Shown here: positions 52,417-62,553 of the stretch, piece by piece
How positions within the stretch are numbered: the stretch's first letter is position 1
How the letters are laid out: each line of letters begins with the position of its first letter
Origin: Streptomyces sp. NBC_00523
GTDB lineage: Bacteria > Actinomycetota > Actinomycetes > Streptomycetales > Streptomycetaceae
Direction of reading: 5' to 3'
DNA: 64,000 nucleotides
Assembly (NCBI RefSeq): GCF_036346615.1
Contig: NZ_CP107836.1
Location: forward strand, 4,278,001 to 4,342,000
The notes under the pieces: model-generated
Database searches by the model: none
What the model was told of the DNA's origin: nothing
What the model saw: only the letters and a program-made list of their open reading frames with translations
Position numbers and translations under genes: made by a program

Positions 52417-53091
52417 TCAGGAGTTCAGATACGTCAGCACCGCGAGCACCCGGCGGTGGTCGCCCTCGCTCGGGGCCAGGCCCAGCTTCTGGAAGATGTT
52501 GCTGACGTGCTTCTCGACCGCCCCGTCGCTCACCACCAGCTGCTTGGCCACCGCGGAGTTCGTACGCCCCTCCGCCATCAGGCCCAGCACCTCGCGCTCA
52601 CGCGGCGTCAGCCCGGCCAGCACGTCCTGCTTCCGGCTGCGGCCCAGCAGCTGCGCCACCACCTCCGGGTCCAGCGCGGTCCCGCCCTGCGCCACCCGGA
52701 CCACCGCGTCCACGAACTCCCGGACCTCGGCGACCCGGTCCTTCAGCAGATACCCGACGCCCCGGCTGGACCCGGCCAGCAGCTCGGTGGCGTACTGCTC
52801 CTCCACGTACTGCGAGAGGACCAGCACCCCGATCCCCGGGTAGTCCCGGCGCAGCCGCACCGCCGCCCGGACGCCCTCGTCGGTGTGGGTCGGGGGCATC
52901 CGCACATCCGCGACCACCACGTCCGGCAGCGCGTCCTGCCCGGCGAGGTCGCCGATCGTCTTGATCAGCGCCTCCGCGTCCCCGACGCCCGCGACGACGT
53001 CGTGTCCGAGATCGGTCAGCAACCGGGTCAGTCCCTCCCGGAGCAGTACCGAATCCTCGGCGATGACCACGCGCACCCTGTCCTCCACCAC
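52417..53091 (-). CDS. NarL/LuxR-type response regulator
   Basis: A 224-aa two-component regulator. The receiver domain has the acidic pocket in VVIAEDSVLLREGL, the phospho-acceptor aspartate in PDVVVADVRMPP, and the lysine in GYLLKDRVAEVREF. The LuxR-type helix-turn-helix is LTPREREVLGLMAEGRTNSA followed by VSDGAVEKHVSNIFQKLGL. The start is GTG 53091 (or 53088) after GGGGGAAAC. It lies 126 bases downstream of a histidine kinase on the same strand; its targets are unknown. Confidence 0.92.
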   Translation of the reverse strand: MVEDRVRVVIAEDSVLLREGLTRLLTDLGHDVVAGVGDAEALIKTIGDLAGQDALPDVVVADVRMPPTHTDEGVRAAVRLRRDYPGIGVLVLSQYVEEQYATELLAGSSRGVGYLLKDRVAEVREFVDAVVRVAQGGTALDPEVVAQLLGRSRKQDVLAGLTPREREVLGLMAEGRTNSAVAKQLVVSDGAVEKHVSNIFQKLGLAPSEGDHRRVLAVLTYLNS

Positions 53092-53217: not shown

Positions 53218-54573
53218 TCAGCCGCGCCAGGGCAGCTCCGCGGTGACCTTCGTCGGGCCGCCCGCCGGCGAGTCGACCACGAGGACGCCGTCCACGGCGT
53301 CCAGCCGCTCGGTGAGCCCGGCGAGCCCGCTGCCCGACGCCAGGTCGGCGCCGCCGCGCCCGTCGTCGGTCACCTGGAGCAGGAGGCGGTCCTCGGTGCG
53401 CCACACGTCGACCGAGGCGCGGGTGGCCCCGGAGTGCTTGCTGATGTTCTGGAGGAGCTCGGAGACGGTGAAGTACGCGATGCCCTCGATGGCCTGCGCG
53501 GGCCGGGACGGGAGGTCCACCTCCACGGTGACCGGCACGGTGCAGCGCGAGGCGACGGCGGAGAGGGCGGCGTCGAGGCCGCGGTCGGTGAGGACGGCGG
53601 GGTGGATGCCGCGGGCGAGGTCGCGCAGTTCCTGGAGGGCGACCTTCACCTCGCCGTGCGCCTCGTCCACCATGCGCGCGGCCGCCTCCGGGTCATCCGT
53701 CAGCTTCTCCTTGGCGAGGCCCAGGTCCATGGCGAGGGCGACGAGGCGGGCCTGGGCGCCGTCGTGGAGGTCGCGCTCGATGCGGCGCAGGTCGGCGGCC
53801 GCGGTGTCCACGACGACACCCCGGTCCGACTCCAGCTCCGTGACGCGCTCCGCCAGCCGGGACGGGCTCAGCAGGCCCGCGACCATCAGCCGGTCGACGG
53901 TCGCCAGGCCCCGGATCACCCAGGGGGTGACGAGGACGATGCCGAGGCCGAGCCCGGCGGTCAGCGCGAGATCGACGCCCGAGTCGAGGTAGACCTCGTG
54001 CTGGGTGTCCCCGTACAGCTGGATGCCCGAAACGCCGGTGTGCGAGGGCACGAACCAGTGCCACAGCGGGTAGGTGAGCGCCGCCCAGCCCCACGCCTGG
54101 AGCGTCAGCGCGACGCAGAACGCGAAGACCGCCCACGGGAAGTGCAGCAGCGCGTACAGCAGGTGCCGCCAGGACACCCCGCTCTTCAGGACCGCGCCGG
54201 TCCAGGACAGCAGCCCGCCCTTGCGGCCGCGCACCGGCGCCGGATCGGCCACGTCCAGCCGCAGCAGGGTCCGCGCCCGGGTCCGCTCCAGCATCCCGAA
54301 GCCCCGGCACATCGCCAGGCCGCCCGCCAGCACCGGAATGCCGAGGAAGGTGACGAGGAGCCCGGCGCCCAGCGAGACCATGGTGATCGCGAAGGTGAAG
54401 AGCACGATGCTGATCGGCAGGCTCAGCAGGAGGTAGAGGAACTCGCGCCAGGTCCTGCCCTCCAGCGGCGCACGCAGCGCGGCCGGCAGGACGTGCCGCC
54501 GCGAGGGACGGTTCCCGAGGCCGCTTCCCGACCGCTGAGGGTCCCGTGTGTCCGGTCCGTATGCCGTGGCCAT
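53218..54573 (-). CDS. NarX/DegS-type sensor histidine kinase, first copy
   Basis: A 451-aa membrane kinase. The sensor part (residues about 35-245) has about six helices of the actinobacterial sensor-domain type (WREFLYLLLSLPISIVLFTF, WRHLLYALLHFPWAVFAFCV). The HisKA_3 domain has RIERDLHDGAQARLVALAMD with the phospho-histidine near residue 285. The ATPase has SELLQNISKHSG (N box) and LQVTDDGRGGADLASGSGLAGL (the D and G boxes; first 20 residues shown in part). It probably signals to the adjacent response regulator. Confidence 0.92.
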   Translation of the reverse strand: MATAYGPDTRDPQRSGSGLGNRPSRRHVLPAALRAPLEGRTWREFLYLLLSLPISIVLFTFAITMVSLGAGLLVTFLGIPVLAGGLAMCRGFGMLERTRARTLLRLDVADPAPVRGRKGGLLSWTGAVLKSGVSWRHLLYALLHFPWAVFAFCVALTLQAWGWAALTYPLWHWFVPSHTGVSGIQLYGDTQHEVYLDSGVDLALTAGLGLGIVLVTPWVIRGLATVDRLMVAGLLSPSRLAERVTELESDRGVVVDTAAADLRRIERDLHDGAQARLVALAMDLGLAKEKLTDDPEAAARMVDEAHGEVKVALQELRDLARGIHPAVLTDRGLDAALSAVASRCTVPVTVEVDLPSRPAQAIEGIAYFTVSELLQNISKHSGATRASVDVWRTEDRLLLQVTDDGRGGADLASGSGLAGLTERLDAVDGVLVVDSPAGGPTKVTAELPWRG

Positions 54574-54709
54574 GGGGTTCCGTCCGTTTCTTCTGCGTCC
54601 GTGAAGGTGCGTGCGTCTGTGGAGGTGCGTGCGTTCTGTACTTCAAGAGTGCTGGGCGGGGCGCCGCCGCACCATGAGGGCGGTATCCGTCTCGGAGCGG
54701 GGGTTTTCC

Positions 54710-55906
54710 CTACCCCTTCACGCGCTGGGCGCTCTTCTCGGCTCCACGGTCGCGCCACGGCAGCTCCGCCGTGACGGTCGTCGGGCCGCCGGCGGGCGAT
54801 TCGAGTACGAAGACCCCGTCCACGGCGTCCAGCCGCTCCGCGAGCCCCGCCATGCCCGTACCGCCGTCCATCGAGGCCCCGCCCCGCCCGTCGTCGCCGA
54901 CCTGGATCAGCAGCCGGTCGCCCGAGCGCCACACGTCGACGGACGCCGTACGGGCCCCGCTGTGCTTGCTGACGTTCTGGAGGAGCTCGGAGACGGTGAA
55001 GTACGCGATGCCCTCGATGGCCTGCGCCGGGCGCCCCGGAAGATCCACCCGTACGGAGACGGGCACGGTGCAGCGCGAGGCGATCGCGGAGAGGGCGGCG
55101 TCGAGGCCGCGGTCGGTGAGGACGGCGGGGTGGATGCCCCGGGCGAGGTCGCGGAGCTCCTGGAGGGCGACCTTCACCTCGCCGTGCGCCTCGTCCACCA
55201 TGCGCGCGGCCGCCTCCGGATCGTCCGTCAGCTTTTCCTTGGCCAGGCCGAGCCCCATCGCGAGGGCGACGAGGCGGGCCTGCGCCCCGTCGTGGAGGTC
55301 GCGCTCGATGCGGCGCAGGTCCGCGGCGGCCGTGTCGACCACCACGCCCCGGTCCGACTCCAGCTCCGCGATGCGGCGTTCCAGGTCGTCGGAGGGCGAG
55401 AGCAGCCCGCGCACCATGGCCCGGTCCGCGTTGCCCATCAGCCGTGCCGCATAGGGGAGCGCCGGCCACACGATGAGGCAGACGAGGGTCACGACGAAGG
55501 TGAGGATGCCCCACGGCAGCCGTACGAACGAGTACAGGGCCGCCCGCCAGGCGACCGGGTCGCGCAGGCTGGTCCACAGCCACACGAAGAACCCGTCGTC
55601 CTCGCGGCCCCGGGCCGGCGGGCTCGGCTCCTCGACCACGACTCCCAGCAACTTGCGGGCGCGGGCGCGCTCGGCGCGGCCGATCAGCCGGGACCCCTGG
55701 AGTCCGGCGGCCAGCAGCGGCAGACCGACGACGGTGACCGCGAGGCCCACGCCGATCGCGATCATCACCACCGTGTAGACGAAACCGGCGATCGCCGTCG
55801 GCAGGTTGGAAAGAAGGTGCGCGACCTCCTTCCACGTCCACCGGCCGAAGGCGAAGCGGACGGGAGGCGGCCCGTCGTGGGCGGGCACCTGGGGGCTCAT
55901 GGTCAT
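54710..55906 (-). CDS. NarX/DegS-type sensor histidine kinase, second copy
   Basis: A 398-aa paralogue of the neighbouring kinase. The sensor domain is shorter (WKEVAHLLSNLPTAIAGFVY, WRAALYSFVRLPWGILTFVV), but from LESDRGVVVDTAAADLRRIE to the end of the ATPase domain the protein is almost identical to the first copy, including the phospho-histidine segment and N box SELLQNVSKHSG. The start is ATG 55906 or 55900. It is divergent from the second nuo cluster (210 bases) and may share the single response regulator with its twin. Confidence 0.9.
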   Translation of the reverse strand: MTMSPQVPAHDGPPPVRFAFGRWTWKEVAHLLSNLPTAIAGFVYTVVMIAIGVGLAVTVVGLPLLAAGLQGSRLIGRAERARARKLLGVVVEEPSPPARGREDDGFFVWLWTSLRDPVAWRAALYSFVRLPWGILTFVVTLVCLIVWPALPYAARLMGNADRAMVRGLLSPSDDLERRIAELESDRGVVVDTAAADLRRIERDLHDGAQARLVALAMGLGLAKEKLTDDPEAAARMVDEAHGEVKVALQELRDLARGIHPAVLTDRGLDAALSAIASRCTVPVSVRVDLPGRPAQAIEGIAYFTVSELLQNVSKHSGARTASVDVWRSGDRLLIQVGDDGRGGASMDGGTGMAGLAERLDAVDGVFVLESPAGGPTTVTAELPWRDRGAEKSAQRVKG

Positions 55907-56040
55907 ACGACCAGCCTGCCGGGCGCGCGAGGCGGATGCCATGGGGCTCGTGGGTGAGGTGAAGTAGGGATATCCCCACCCGCGCCCCCCTCGTGCCCCA
56001 CCCGTCCCGCTCCCGTTCCCCGTTCGTTGCCCGACGCAAC

Positions 56041-56070
56041 TGCTTACCCGTCCTTTACAGGGCCTAGACT
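56041..56070 (+). promoter_or_regulatory. Candidate promoter of the second nuo cluster
   Basis: TAGACT at 56065-56070 is a good -10 element; TGCTTA 18 bases upstream is a weak -35. The nuoA2 start is 47 bases further on. The other half of the 210-base gap should hold the divergent kinase promoter, which I could not define. Confidence 0.4.
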
Positions 56071-56116
56071 CCCGTGCGTACAGATCGTGGACGGGGCTAG
56101 GGAGCGAGGGGCGGAC

Positions 56117-56529
56117 GTGACGGGTCTTCCCGGTGCGGCATCGACACCGGCGCGGACGGTGCTCGCGTCGTCGGACTACTTCCACAGCTACTCGGTGGTC
56201 GGACTCCTCGCCCTGGTGGGCGTCCTGTTCGTCGCCGTCGCCTTCGGCGCGGGCCGGCTGCTGCGGCCGGTGGTCCCGACGCCGGAGAAGCTGCTCACGT
56301 ACGAGTGCGGCGTGGACCCGGTGGGGGAGGGCTGGGCGCACACCCAGGTCCGCTACTACGTGTACGCCTTCCTGTACGTGATCTTCGCCGTCGACTCGAT
56401 CTTCCTGTTCCCCTGGGCGACGGTCTTCGCGGCGCCGGGCTACGGCGCGACCACGCTGGTGGAAATGTTCATCTTCCTCGGTTTCCTGGCCGTGGGACTG
56501 CTCTACGCATGGAAGAAGGGCGTCCTCGA

Positions 56530-56539
<10 letters not shown>
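56117..56539 (+). CDS. nuoA2: NADH-quinone oxidoreductase subunit A, second cluster
   Basis: A 140-aa three-helix subunit. The conserved loop is [20 protein letters not shown] with the family cysteine, followed by [20 protein letters not shown] and [23 protein letters not shown] 56117 follows GAGGGG; an upstream GTG-type extension to 56027 lacks support. The last 10 bases overlap nuoB2. It is the first gene of a second complex I-like operon. Confidence 0.93.
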
Positions 56540-57161
<622 letters not shown>

Positions 57162-57165
<4 letters not shown>

Positions 57166-58031
57166 CCCTCTTCGACCGGCTCCCGGACGCGGTGACGGAA
57201 ATCTTCGGCGAGGACGCGACGGCCGAGCAGGCGTACGACCTCCTTACGGTCGACGTCCCGCCCGCCTCCTGGCTCCCCGCCCTCGAAACCGCCCGGGACA
57301 CCCTCGGCTGCACGTACTTCGACTGGCTGAGCGCGGTGGACGAACCGGGCACGGGCTTCCGGGTGTGCGCGCACGTGGCGGCCCTGCCCGGCTCCGGGGT
57401 CCGCCGCCTGCTCGTCCGTACGACGGTGCCGCACGAGGCCCCGTCGCTGCCGACGGCGATCGGTGTGTACGCGGGGGCCGCCTGGCACGAACGCGAGACG
57501 CACGAGATGTTCGGCGTCGTCTTCGAGGACCACCCGAATCTCGTCCCGCTCCTCCTCCCCGAGAACTTCGAGGGCCACCCCCTCCGCAAGGACTTCGTGC
57601 TGGCCGCCCGCGTGGCGAAGGCATGGCCGGGCGCGAAGGAACCGGGCGAGTCGGACCACGGCGGCCCGAAGCGCCGCACGATGCTCCCCCCGGGCGTCCC
57701 GGACCCGAACGAGTGGGGCCCGCTGAAGGGCCAGCTGCCGCCGGCTCCGGCGCGCCCGGCGCGGGGCGCGCGGGCCGCGGGGGACCGCCCGGCGCGACGT
57801 GCCCGCACGGCGGGCGAGGCCACGCCGAGCACGCCCGAAGCGGCGGCTCCGCCGGAGGCGCCGGCTACCCGCCCGCGCCGCAGCCGCAGCGCGTCCCAGG
57901 GCTCGGCGAGCCAGCAGGGGGCGGGGTCGCCTCCGGCGACGGACGCGCCGTGGCGCAACCCGCAGGAGACCAAGCCCCCGGTTCGACCCGACAACGACCC
58001 CACCCCCGACAACGGAGGCGATCAAGAGTGA
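57162..58031 (+). CDS. nuoC2: NADH-quinone oxidoreductase subunit C, second cluster, with long disordered tail
   Basis: A 289-aa protein. Residues 1 to about 160 are NuoC-like: [40 protein letters not shown] and [18 protein letters not shown] are the family blocks. The remaining about 130 residues are a Pro/Ala/Arg/Ser-rich tail with no recognisable fold. There is no NuoD part: the stop overlaps the nuoH2 start at once. In ordinary complex I nuoD follows here, so this cluster lacks the quinone-site 49-kDa subunit. Confidence 0.88.
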
Positions 58032-58996
58032 ACGACGCCCTGGACGTCGCCCTCCGCATTGTCATCGTCTTCGCCGTCTTCATGGTCCTTCCGCTCGTCG
58101 TCGGCCAGACCGAGCACAAGGTCATGGCCCACATGCAGGGCCGCCTCGGCCCCATGTACGCGGGCGGCTTCCACGGCTGGGCCCAGCTCGTCGCCGACGG
58201 CGTGAAGTTCGCGCAGAAGGAGGACATCGTCCCCGCCGGCGCCGACCGCAAGGTCTTCCGCCTGGCGCCGGCCGTGGCCCTCCTCCCGTATCTGCTCGTG
58301 CTGGTCGCGATCCCGATCGGCCCGGGCGAGGGCGCGGTCGGCCAGGTCGTCGACGCGGGCATCTTCTTCGTACTCGCCGTGATGGGCGTGGGCGTACTCG
58401 GCTCGCTGATGGCCGGCTGGGCGTCGGCCAACAAGTTCTCCCTGCTCGGCGGCCTCCGCACCGCCGCGCAACTCCTCGCGTACGAGCTCCCGATGCTGCT
58501 CGCCGCCGCCTCGGTGGCGATGGCGGCGGGCACGGTCTCGCTGCCCGGCATCCTGGACGCGTTCGCGTGGTGGTGGCTGCCCTGGCAGATCACCGGAGCC
58601 CTGGTCTTCTTCGTGGCCGGACTCGCCGAACTCCAGCGCCCCCCGTTCGACATGCCGGTCGCCGACTCGGAGATCATCTTCGGCGCGTACACCGAGTACA
58701 CCGGCCTCCGCTTCGCGCTGTTCCTGCTCGCCGAGTACGCCGGCATCGTCGTGCTGTGCGGGCTGACCACCGTGCTGTTCCTCGGCGGCTGGCACGGCCC
58801 GATGGGCGCCGACGGACTCGGCTGGGTCTGGACCCTGCTGAAGACCGGCATCCTCGCGTTCATCGTGATCTGGCTGCGCGTGACCTACCCGCGCCTGCGC
58901 GAGGACCAGCTGCAGAAGCTCGCCTGGACGACCCTCATCCCGCTCGCTCTCGCGCAGATCGCGCTCACCGGCATCGTGAAGGTGGCGATCAACTAG
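58028..58996 (+). CDS. nuoH2: NADH-quinone oxidoreductase subunit H, second cluster
   Basis: A 322-aa membrane subunit. The first helix loop reads [20 protein letters not shown], where canonical NuoH has ERK...RIGPNR; the acidic loop [20 protein letters not shown] and [19 protein letters not shown] are present. It has no C-terminal tail, unlike the first copy. GTG 58028 overlaps the nuoC2 stop. Confidence 0.95.
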
Positions 58997-59559
58997 TGCC
59001 CCCGATCCCCGGCTCAGGTCTGGCCAAGGGCCTCGCCGTCACCCTGCGGACGATGACGAAGAAGACCGTCACCGCCCAGTACCCGGACGTGCAGCCCGAA
59101 CTGCCGCCCCGCTCGCGCGGCGTCATCGCGCTGTTCGAGGAGAACTGCACGGTCTGCATGCTGTGCGCCCGCGAGTGCCCCGACTGGTGCATCTACATCG
59201 ACTCCCACAAGGAGACGGTGCCCGCCGCGGCCCCGGGCGGCCGCGAACGCAGCCGCAACGTCCTCGACCGCTTCGCGATCGACTTCTCGCTCTGCATGTA
59301 CTGCGGCATCTGCATCGAGGTCTGCCCGTTCGACGCGCTGTTCTGGTCGCCGGAGTTCGAGTACGCGGAGACGGACATCCTGGACCTCACCCATGAGCGC
59401 GACAAGCTGCGCGACTGGATGTGGACGGTCCCGGAACCGCCCGCGCTCGACCCGCTCGCCGAGGAACCGAAGGAACTCGCCGCGGCCCGCAAGACGGCCG
59501 ACAAGCTCCGCGCCCAGCAGGAGCAGGAGCAGGACACGGCGCAGGAGGGCAACGCATGA
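58996..59559 (+). CDS. nuoI2: NADH-quinone oxidoreductase subunit I, second cluster
   Basis: A 187-aa two-cluster ferredoxin subunit. Motifs are [12 protein letters not shown] (followed by the unusual DWCIYID) and [12 protein letters not shown]. It starts at GTG 58996, sharing one base with the nuoH2 TAG stop. The C-terminus is a charged Gln/Glu-rich helix. It should pass electrons to NuoB2. Confidence 0.94.
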
Positions 59560-60140
59560 TCACCGCCCTCGCGGCCGCCGAGGCGGCCCCCGGCTTCCTC
59601 TCCCCGGCAGGCGTCGAGATCGCCTTCGTCCTCGTCGGCATCGCCACCCTCGGCGCGGCCCTCGTGACCGTCACGACCAGGCAGCTGGTGCACGCCGCCC
59701 TCTGGCTGATCGTGGCGCTCGGCGGTCTCGCCGTCGAGTACCTCCTGCTCACGGCGGAGTTCATCGCCTGGGTGCAGGTACTGATCTACGTGGGCTCCGT
59801 CGTCGTCCTCCTCCTGTTCGGGCTGATGCTCACCAGGGCCCCGATCGGCCGCTCCCCGGACGCCGACTCGGAGAACCGCCTGCCCGCCCTCGCGGTCGCC
59901 GTCGCCTCCGCCGGCGCCCTCGTCTGGGTCGTCGTGGACGCCTTCCGTACGACGTGGATCGAGCTGGACGGGCCCGCCCAGGGCTCCACCGAGGTCACCG
60001 GCGCCTTCCTCTTCCGCAACTGGGTGCTCCCCTTCGAAGCGCTCTCCGTCCTTCTGCTCGCCGCCCTGGTCGGCGCGATCGTCCTCTCCCGCAAGGGCGG
60101 CCGGGCCGACGCCACCCCGCCCCGAGAGGACAAGCGCTGA
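59556..60140 (+). CDS. nuoJ2: NADH-quinone oxidoreductase subunit J, second cluster
   Basis: A 194-aa five-helix membrane subunit with the NuoJ middle helix [20 protein letters not shown]. It lacks the long cytoplasmic tail of the first copy. The ATG overlaps the nuoI2 stop (ATGA). Confidence 0.93.
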
Positions 60141-60556
60141 TGCACCTCGCCTATCCCGCGGTGCTCGCCGCCCTCCTCTTCTGCACCGGGCTGTACGGAG
60201 TTCTCGCCCGCCGCAACGCGATCCTCGTCCTGATGTCCGTCGAGCTGATGCTCAACGCCGTCAACCTCAACCTGGTCGCGTTCGACGTATGGCTCCGCGA
60301 CCGCCTGCACTCCGGCCAGGCCCTCACCCTGTTCACCATCGCCATCGCGGCGGCGGAGATCGGCATCGGCCTGGCGATCGTCCTCGCCGTCCACCGCAAC
60401 CGGGGCAGCTCCGACGTCGACCGCCTCCGCGACACCGCCGAGACCGACGAGGCCGAGACCGTCCCGGCCGGCGACGACGAGGACGACGCCCCCGACCCCG
60501 AAGACCAGGCCACTGCTGCGGCAGGGAAGGCAAAGAAGGCAGAGGCCACCCCGTGA
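60140..60556 (+). CDS. nuoK2: NADH-quinone oxidoreductase subunit K, second cluster, with acidic tail
   Basis: A 138-aa protein. Residues 1 to about 95 are a normal NuoK with the glutamates in [17 protein letters not shown] and [15 protein letters not shown]. About 40 extra residues follow, very acidic ([11 protein letters not shown]), then Ala/Lys-rich. The ATG shares one base with the nuoJ2 stop; the TGA overlaps nuoL2. Confidence 0.93.
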
Positions 60557-62553
60557 CCACCACGACCCTCGCCGTCCTCGTCCCCCTCCTCCCGTTCCTG
60601 GGCGCGGCCGCCGGGCTGCTCCTCGGCCGCACCGCACCCGAGTACGTGCGCCCGCTCGCCGTCCTGCCCTCCCTCGTTTCGCTCGTCCTCGCGGCCACCG
60701 TGGCCGCGCGCCAGGGCGGTGGCCGGGCCATCGACGCGGCGACCCAGCTCACCCCCACCGGCTCCGTCCCCATCGACCTCGCGCTGCACCTCGACGGCTT
60801 CGCCGTCCTCGTCGCCGTGCTGGTCGCCCTGGTCGCGAGCTGCGTGCAGATCTACTCGACCGCGTACCTCCGCGACGACCCCCGCTACCCCTCGTACGCG
60901 GCGCTGGTCTCCCTCTTCACCTCCGCGATGCTGCTCGTCGTCTACTCCGGCGACCTGATGGTGCTGCTGGTCGGCTGGGAGGTCATGGGCATCTGCTCGT
61001 ACTTCCTGGTCGGCCACTACTGGGAGACGCCCGAGGCACGCGCCGCCTCCCTGAAGGCGTTCCTGGTCACCAAGCTGGGCGACGTCCCCTTCCTCATCGG
61101 CCTGTTCGCGCTCGCCGCCGACACCGGCTCCTTCCGCATCACCCGCGTCCTGGGCGCCGTCGCCCACGGCGGCCTCGATCACCCCACCCTCATCGCGCTC
61201 CTCCTCCTGGCCGGGGTCGCGGGCAAGTCCGCGCAGTTCCCCCTGCACACCTGGCTCCCCGACGCCATGGCCGGCCCCACCCCCGTCTCGGCGCTGATCC
61301 ACGCGGCGACGATGGTCGCCGCCGGCATCTACTTCGTCGCCCGGCTCCTCCCCGTCTTCGCGGCCTCCGGCGCGGCCCTGGTCGTCCTCGCCGTGATGGC
61401 GGCCGTCACGATGATCGGGTCCGGGCTCGCCGCGCTCGCCCAGGACGACATCAAGCGCGTCCTCGCCTACTCGACCATCGGGCAGCTCGGCTACATGTCG
61501 GGCGCCCTGGCCGTCGGCGACCGGGGGGCCGCCGTCTTCCACCTCGTCTCGCACGGTGCCTTCAAGGCGGTCCTCTTCCTCGCGGCCGGCGTCGTCATCC
61601 ACGCCGCCGGCACCAACTCACTGGCCGCCATGTCCCGGATGAGCGGCCTCGCCCGCCGCATCCCGGACGCCTACTGGACGATGACCGTCGCGCTGCTCGC
61701 GCTCGCCGCCATCCCCCCGTTCGCCGGCTTCTTCTCCAAGGAAGCCGTCCTCGTCGCCGCCGAGCACACCGCGCTCGGCGACCGGCACGTCGCCCCGGCC
61801 GCCGCCGGCTGGACGGTCCTCGTCGCCGGGCTGCTGGCCGCCGTGCTCACCGCCGCCTACGCCACCCGGCTCTGGCTCCTCGCCTTCCGGGGCCGGGGCG
61901 CCGAGGCCCCCGACCACGGCAGGCAGCCCGCCGCCATGACCGCCGTCCTGTGGGTCCTGGCCGTCCCGACCATCGCCCTCGGGCTGAGCGTCGGCGTCAT
62001 CGGCGACTGGTTCGACGGCCACCGCCTCGTCCCCTCGCTGACCACCGCGGTCCTGTCCACCGGCGTCGGCCTCGTCGGCGGCCTGGTCACCTACGCGGCC
62101 TGGCGCCACACCACCGCGCTCGCCGCCCGCGTCCCCATGGGCTCGGTCGTCGCCCACCCGGACGCGGAACCGGCCCTCGTGGAGATCGAGGCGATCGAGG
62201 CCCGCACCGCCGCCTACGGCCCGGCCGGGGACGCCCCCGACCCCGCCGACCCCGGACGCCTGCTGCTCGGCCCGCTCCACCGCCACGCGGCCACCGGCTT
62301 CCACCTCGACGCCCTGTACGTGGCGCTGTTCGTCCGCCCCGTCCAGGCCGCCGCCCGCCTCGTCCGCTTCCTGGACCGCGAGGTCGTGGAGACCTACGTA
62401 CGCGGCTCCGCCACCGGCGCACGCTGGCTCGGCACGGCCGTCCGCCGCGCCCAGACCGGCAACGTGCAGACCTACCTCAGCGCACTGCTGGCCGGTTCCC
62501 TGGTCCTGGCGGTCGCCGCCGTCGTCTTCGCCAACGTCAACGCGGGGTCCTGA
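60553..62553 (+). CDS. nuoL2: NADH-quinone oxidoreductase subunit L, second cluster
   Basis: A 666-aa antiporter-like pump subunit: [60 protein letters not shown] and [15 protein letters not shown] are the family blocks. The C-terminal lateral helix region and final anchor are present. GTG 60553 overlaps the nuoK2 stop. Confidence 0.95.

Follow-up and report, generated by a model that had tools for sequence, protein, structure and literature searches.

How two neighboring sensor histidine kinases can differ plainly in their membrane sensors and yet be nearly identical in part of their cores is the question raised by a locus in Streptomyces sp. NBC_00523, examined here within a window of 64,000 nucleotides (contig NZ_CP107836.1, positions 4,278,001 to 4,342,000). 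The original prediction, made from this DNA alone, placed two kinase genes at 53218-54573 and 54710-55906 on the minus strand, and both open reading frames (ORFs) were found there. Transcribed in the order HK-B, HK-A and NarL-type response regulator, the genes constitute an AbrC-type system, with two PF13796/HisKA_3 kinases followed by one NarL-type regulator on the same strand; judged by gene order, HK-B appears to correspond to AbrC1, HK-A to AbrC2 and the ORF at 52417-53091 to AbrC3. We consider it very probable that this AbrC-type pair combines diverged sensors with a dimerization and histidine phosphotransfer (DHp) segment that has been converted repeatedly in both directions and is also held by purifying selection, with shared docking on AbrC3 as the likely background. 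The three genes are as follows.

52417..53091, minus strand: AbrC3-type response regulator (Response_reg plus GerE/LuxR, NarL type), assigned by Pfam matches to Response_reg and GerE and by its place after the two kinases; the precise GTG start is only approximate.
53218..54573, minus strand: HK-A, AbrC2-type sensor kinase of 451 amino acids (PF13796, HisKA_3 and HATPase_c by Pfam).
54710..55906, minus strand: HK-B, AbrC1-type sensor kinase of 398 amino acids (PF13796, HisKA_3 and HATPase_c-like by Pfam).

HK-A and HK-B were compared in 30-residue sliding windows (HK-A numbering) for amino acid identity and for identity at third codon positions. Divergence along the pair was non-uniform, low identity in the sensor giving way to high identity in part of the core. 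The sensor halves are diverged as claimed, with 30-50% amino acid identity and third-position identity of 0.36-0.63 in windows up to about residue 165. The cores, said to be near-identical in protein and very similar in DNA, begin to match sharply (87-100% amino acid identity and third-position identity of 0.70-0.90 in windows starting at residues 253-358); however, the match is uneven, as the C-terminal part of the ATPase domain diverges, with a drop to 67-77% and 0.53-0.70 in windows starting at 373-403 before the final two C-terminal windows again reach 83% amino acid identity. The longest identical nucleotide run between the two genes is 62 nt. Over 40 residues of the DHp domain, HK-A and HK-B are 97.5% identical, as compared to 72.5% for the runner-up pair in the same genome, a comparison covering 19 readable motifs out of 34 HisKA_3 matches (30 taken as loci); one of the 19, L166, is likely read on the wrong strand. 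HK-B aside, the best match to HK-A elsewhere in the 7.53 Mb genome is 43% identical, and the closest named match among the matches listed is from Streptomyces sp. CB01249 (99% over HK-A).

Synonymous codons were compared across 136 loci, comprising the window, 80 named loci and 55 further loci. Both kinases were present at 130 of these and HK-A only, in the available DNA, at 6, with HK-B found farther upstream at two of the latter (L134 and L140); removal of 8 loci with identical HK-A ends left 122 genomes. The 80 named loci were the top-ranking ones among at least 550 relatives, which biases the set to the window's kin, although we see no reason why this bias should favor A-B similarity. The statistic was the share of positions with the same codon, taken where both proteins carry the same residue. 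For residues 245-372, the same codon was used at 80.4% of such positions within genomes (0.8043), as compared to 63.1% between an HK-A and a foreign HK-B, 63.2% among HK-A orthologues and 64.6% among HK-B orthologues. All 122 genomes exceeded their own A-to-foreign-B mean and 101 lay in the top 5%, and 10,000 random pairings gave a maximum of 0.6562. The NBC_00523 pair itself scored 0.79 against a mean of 0.67, a value reached by none of the 121 foreign HK-B copies. In contrast to the within-minus-between excess of 0.173 in this tract, the excess was 0.014 in the sensor (0.593 versus 0.579; 77 of 122 genomes above their mean) and 0.047 in residues 373-449 (0.644 versus 0.597; 94 of 122). Comparison with orthologues, suggested at the outset as the way to find conversion tracts, thus placed the excess in one segment and left it near zero in the sensor and C terminus.

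Mapped in 20-residue windows along HK-A, the excess exhibited a sharp edge at residue 246 (ELESDRG), rising from +0.01 at 231-250 to +0.17 at 241-260, and held at +0.15 to +0.24 in the subsequent windows up to 331-350. It faded between approximately residues 345 and 392 (+0.07 to +0.13 in windows spanning 341-400, then +0.02 to +0.04 beginning with 391-410). Sensor windows with data ranged from -0.03 to +0.05, except for a single sparse window that reached +0.10; no data were available for three windows within the HK-A extra loop. The longest identical nucleotide run had a median of 71 within genomes versus 27 between genomes (10 random partners each), and the longest within-genome run was 406 nt (L017). 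The tract spans the signaling helix, DHp helices alpha1 and alpha2, and the start of the ATPase domain as far as the N box, at the following positions.

53401..53838, minus strand: homogenized tract in HK-A, residues 246-391, from the sliding codon test (122 genomes) and trees.
53539-53838, minus strand: strongest part of the tract in HK-A, residues 246-345.
54929..55366, minus strand: homogenized tract in HK-B, residues 181-326, from the same alignment columns.
55067-55366, minus strand: strongest part of the tract in HK-B, residues 181-280.

Phylogenetic trees were built with IQ-TREE for 77 genomes. L018 was left out, its broken HK-B having formed a very long branch in a 30-genome tree; it is included in the 122-genome sets and in the FastTree tree. 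HK-B of L018 is spread over two ORFs, as is the regulator match of L017, and either decay or sequencing error could be responsible. The sensor and C-terminal trees each separated A from B on one branch (SH-like approximate likelihood ratio test support of 100 and 99), and the duplication is therefore old. In the tree of residues 246-345, by comparison, the paralogues are mixed, with 29 changes of A/B label needed, 14 of them forced by well-supported branches, versus 1 and 1 in the flanks; a single A clade was rejected (approximately unbiased [AU] test, p 0.0055). A FastTree tract tree of 78 genomes required 31 changes, and an IQ-TREE tree of residues 246-390 in 30 genomes required 6, 4 of them forced (AU p 0.0046). 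Among 61 disjoint species pairs, concerted and kinase-specific third positions numbered 548 and 426 in the tract, as compared to 130 and 2466 in the sensor and 79 and 735 in the C terminus. No donor bias was seen in these species pairs, homogenized third positions being A-type in 538 cases and B-type in 591. Conversion of the DHp segment is thus recurrent and two-way, and is limited to part of the core. The gene conversion first proposed for this pair is therefore strongly supported by codons, trees and species pairs, while the notion of a kinase core held alike over its full length is not supported: homogenization is limited to the DHp domain and the beginning of the ATPase domain, and even within the DHp domain residue 283 is usually exempt.

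A recent duplication of the core, or codon bias shared across the genome, is scarcely credible as the source of the within-genome match, for although codon use in Streptomyces is strongly skewed and chance third-position matches are accordingly frequent, the small excesses in the sensor and residues 373-449 of the same genes, together with trees that part A from B once, rule both out. Purifying selection alone, keeping the cores alike for AbrC3 with no conversion, is very improbable. Orthologues, too, are well conserved in the tract at the amino acid level (A-A 0.94-0.99 in conserved blocks), and the conservation persists where codon match is low, but selection on the protein cannot raise synonymous agreement within a genome (0.80) over that between orthologues (0.63), and the codon test thereby rules it out as sole cause; nor can it create near-identical stretches of 300-435 nt or 29 A/B switches. 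Selection nevertheless acts as an additional layer. Where the tract codon match is poorest (ten genomes, 0.56-0.66), amino acid identity in the tract remains at 88-93%, as compared to 60-69% for the C-terminal part, demonstrating purifying selection on the DHp segment where codon match is low. Selection to keep the cores matched, the other cause originally put forward, thus stands for this segment and not for the core as a whole.

Beyond the main set, 22 additional family loci were examined. A kinase pair was present at 9, five under other genus codes (L158, L159, L160, L161, and L196) and four under the window's genus code. The DHp codon match of these pairs was 0.76-1.00, while between-genome comparisons among them averaged 0.62, with the 95th percentile at 0.84; three of the nine (0.76, 0.81, and 0.82) are individually unremarkable. 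The pairs at L158, L160, and L164 are identical over all 300 nt of DHp compared, and in two pairs with 2.9 and 3.9 kb between the His codons the codon match is 0.82 and 0.86.

Within the tract, one residue commonly differs between the two kinases; it lies near the phospho-acceptor histidine, at the following codons.

53725..53727, minus strand: codon 283 of HK-A, GAC, Asp; the sole A/B-diagnostic column within residues 246-391.
55253..55255, minus strand: the matching codon 218 of HK-B, GGG, Gly.
53764..53766, minus strand: phospho-acceptor His270 of HK-A in HDGAQA (His205 in HK-B), from the HisKA_3 match and ungapped alignment to DesK His188.

Diagnostic columns, in which the A and B consensus residues differ and each reaches 70% or more, numbered 28, of which 22 fall in the sensor, 5 in the C terminus and 1, residue 283, in 246-391. 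HK-A and HK-B carry Asp and Gly, respectively, at this position in 97 of 122 genomes and Glu and Gly in 2, the HK-B residue being unreadable in 1. Among 31 strongly homogenized genomes, which form 17 clusters and hence are not 31 independent cases, residue 283 differs in 52%, residue 339 in 19%, and residues 292, 296, 300, and 311 in 16%, as compared to an average of 1.8% at the other columns. In L031 and L025, codon 283 (GAT versus GGC) is the sole difference between the two genes over 435 and 410 nt; these two genomes are relatives whose tracts are 6% apart, so that conversion probably continued after their split. Asp occupies position 283 in 12 of 13 single-kinase loci (Gly in L155), and several pairs outside the main set carry Asp or Glu in both copies, in light of which the Gly of AbrC1 looks like the derived state. 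When aligned without gaps to DesK of Bacillus subtilis, residue 282 matches Leu200, a docking residue that inserts into the regulator according to the available portion of PMC5231405, and residue 283 matches the adjacent Lys201.

The suggestion that two inputs converge on one output agrees with both the genome and the genetics of S. coelicolor. The locus itself contains a single regulator, and the regulators that follow it in similarity elsewhere in the genome, four with 53-57%, directly adjoin four further kinases of this type. In S. coelicolor, AbrC1/AbrC2/AbrC3 (SCO4598/97/96) is described as promoting antibiotic production and development (excerpts of PMC3098853 and PMC9739842). As reported in the accessible sections of PMC4428217, the two kinases are co-transcribed at similar levels, loss of AbrC1 leads to antibiotic over-production and loss of AbrC2 does not, an excess of AbrC3 is toxic when either kinase is present by itself and harmless when both are missing, and in vitro phosphotransfer gave no clear result; phosphatase activity was proposed for AbrC1 by its authors. 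Both kinases, however, have Ala at H+5 within HDGAQA (Ala275 in HK-A) where DesK has Gln193, the phosphatase residue in the account of PMC5231405 available, and thus lack the catalytic Gln characteristic of bifunctional kinases of the DesK/NarX kind. The proposed AbrC1 phosphatase would therefore be without its usual catalytic residue, although another residue, for instance the Gln at H+4, could replace it. Ala in place of Gln or His at H+5 was observed in 5 of the 19 readable motifs of the genome (L181, L188, L190, L191, and L192), so that the subfamily as such may have lost the standard phosphatase residue.

The history that we propose begins with duplication of a kinase and divergence of the two membrane sensors, after which the central DHp segment has been overwritten repeatedly by conversion between the neighboring genes, in both directions and in many lineages, with purifying selection keeping it alike where codon matching has decayed. 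The likely reason, we infer, is that both kinases dock the same regulator, AbrC3, with the same surface. An alternative reason is that tract identity is kept for obligatory AbrC1-AbrC2 heterodimers that integrate two signals. The tract does span the dimerization helices, co-transcription at similar levels and over-production of antibiotics upon AbrC1 deletion are as expected (PMC4428217, in part), and Ala at H+5 weakens the published phosphatase guess; but in the toxicity assay of the same study one kinase, whichever of the two it is, suffices for AbrC3 activation in vivo, the kinase-specific residue 283 is often kept, single-kinase loci exist and another residue could stand in for the Gln, so that obligatory heterodimers appear unlikely. 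Optional pairing of AbrC1 with AbrC2 is predicted from dimerization helices that are almost identical, and its chances seem to us nearly balanced. It is a more tentative suggestion that residue 283, adjoining the position that inserts into the regulator in DesK, might make AbrC1 a weaker or differently biased kinase that then damps AbrC2; damping via heterodimers would be a testable alternative to an AbrC1 phosphatase. Doubtful, and the boldest of these proposals, is the combination in which AbrC1 and AbrC2 would be interchangeable subunits, forming homo- and heterodimers freely by means of the converted DHp segment, with a selected residue 283 setting output such that AbrC1 tunes AbrC2 without phosphatase activity.

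A further rival accepts conversion and regards it as neutral, adjacent conserved direct repeats recombining with no functional advantage, and we hold it to be a serious possibility, if not the favored one. The genes are 136 bp apart, homogenization coincides with the region of highest conservation, and the widely spaced pairs described above retain matches of 0.82 and 0.86. Furthermore, an in-frame laboratory deletion, LinR, fused AbrC1 and AbrC2 (as recounted in the review PMC9739842), indicating that these genes can recombine, although LinR leaves one chimeric kinase whereas conversion keeps both. Neutral conversion alone leaves the codon 283 difference in L031 and L025 unexplained; abutting tracts could explain it.

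Several observations weigh against repeated conversion under selection as we describe it. The window's own recent line shows little sign of new conversion: each of its copies clusters with the same-type copy of L009 in the 30-genome tree, and kinase-specific sites outnumber concerted sites against L010 (21:7), L012 (17:8), and L013 (21:17), the reverse holding for L016 (10 kinase-specific versus 21 concerted). Within the tract, codon match increases with amino acid match (Spearman 0.61), and as conversion needs local identity, it may simply follow a segment whose similarity selection maintains in any case, and bring no advantage in itself. Residue 283 is alike in 22 of the 122 genomes (Asp/Asp in 16 and Gly/Gly in 6), so that a difference there is not essential, and where present it could be either kept by selection or a trace of broken conversion tracts. 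Lastly, 13 of the 22 additional loci have one kinase with this motif.

The single-kinase loci differ in their surroundings. At L153, L154, and L155 (codes g2, g5, and g15) the kinase is accompanied by the regulator and an adjoining oxidoreductase-like gene, as it is at L156 (g8), where the sensor is of AbrC1 type; an AbrC3-like regulator was not found in the DNA examined around the single kinase at four g14 loci, four g3 loci and L157. The L156 sensor is AbrC1-type at 19 of 22 diagnostic columns and its C-terminal length is AbrC2-like. It is possibly a natural LinR-like chimera, an assignment that is not secure because single-kinase loci also mostly show AbrC2-like C-terminal diagnostics. At the g3 loci L145-L148, a PF13796 'Sensor' protein lacking a kinase core adjoins the single kinase (e.g., L147:2655-3458 and L146:4826-5569; the Pfam search covered two of these loci), and the core-less protein is a possible partner of the kinase. 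The 6.8-8.5 kb examined there yielded no AbrC3-like regulator. HK-B was not found at L042 (S. flavidovirens) or L044 (S. californicus), where nuoB lies approximately 1.5 kb or less upstream of HK-A and thus leaves too little room for it; these are perhaps natural AbrC1-less strains.

With respect to the proteins of the window, PF13796 'Sensor' and HisKA_3 were detected in both kinases alike, and HATPase_c scored 28.4 bits in HK-A and 24.8 bits in HK-B, the latter just under the cut-off of 26.4. The sensor of HK-A contains an extra loop, absent from that of HK-B, at approximately residues 175-198 outside the predicted helices (hydropathy and AlphaFold2 model), and HK-A has some 50 residues ahead of its last membrane helix that HK-B lacks (alignment and AlphaFold2); the models served for topology only, their mean predicted local distance difference test scores of 68.5 (HK-A) and 66.4 (HK-B) indicating moderate confidence. 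The ATG of HK-B at 55906 sits within a longer GTG-started ORF (54710-56341). By eye, the locus is flanked by a 2-oxoacid oxidoreductase-like gene on one side and nuo genes on the other, and several family loci are alike by similarity; the abrC neighborhood of S. coelicolor is presumably likewise an oxidoreductase-like gene and nuo genes. The nuo-like (complex I) run of 56027-62553 begins beside HK-B and was read by eye as nuoA, B, C, H, I, J, K, and L, with nuoD-G not among them in that interval.

This system of two kinases and one regulator is already known, S. coelicolor AbrC1/2/3 being of the same composition, co-located and with a NarL-type regulator. Its kinases are given as 57% identical in amino acids and 83% in nucleotides overall in the consulted part of PMC4428217, and the excerpted descriptions report overall identity with neither a core/sensor split nor conversion. 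DesK/DesR of B. subtilis shares the HisKA_3 family, supplies the regulator-docking model and includes the closest solved structure by profile (3ehf, E 6.5e-15), but DesK has Gln193 at H+5 and Lys201 where the AbrC kinases have Ala and Asp/Gly283. DesK also acts as a single kinase. The closest parallel seen is Campylobacter jejuni Tlp2/Tlp3/Tlp4, which combine identical signaling domains with sensors approximately 30% identical, the signaling-domain tree largely mirroring the genome tree and the sensor tree differing in topology; these are, however, chemoreceptors and not kinases, and 'gene conversion' there denotes only change into a pseudogene (PMC9769880, in the portion available). No report of the conversion, its limits or the resisting residue 283 was found among the papers listed by searches of an open-access library.

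After duplication of a histidine kinase, DHp residues are usually expected to diverge, insulating the two pathways. At this locus, the opposite is maintained across many Streptomyces species, in the regulation of antibiotic production. One practical consequence is that kinase trees based on the core only can mislabel AbrC1 and AbrC2. As a natural experiment, the family can show which features two kinases have to keep in common when both serve one regulator, and it singles out residue 283 as the position that explains, or fails to explain, their differing strengths.

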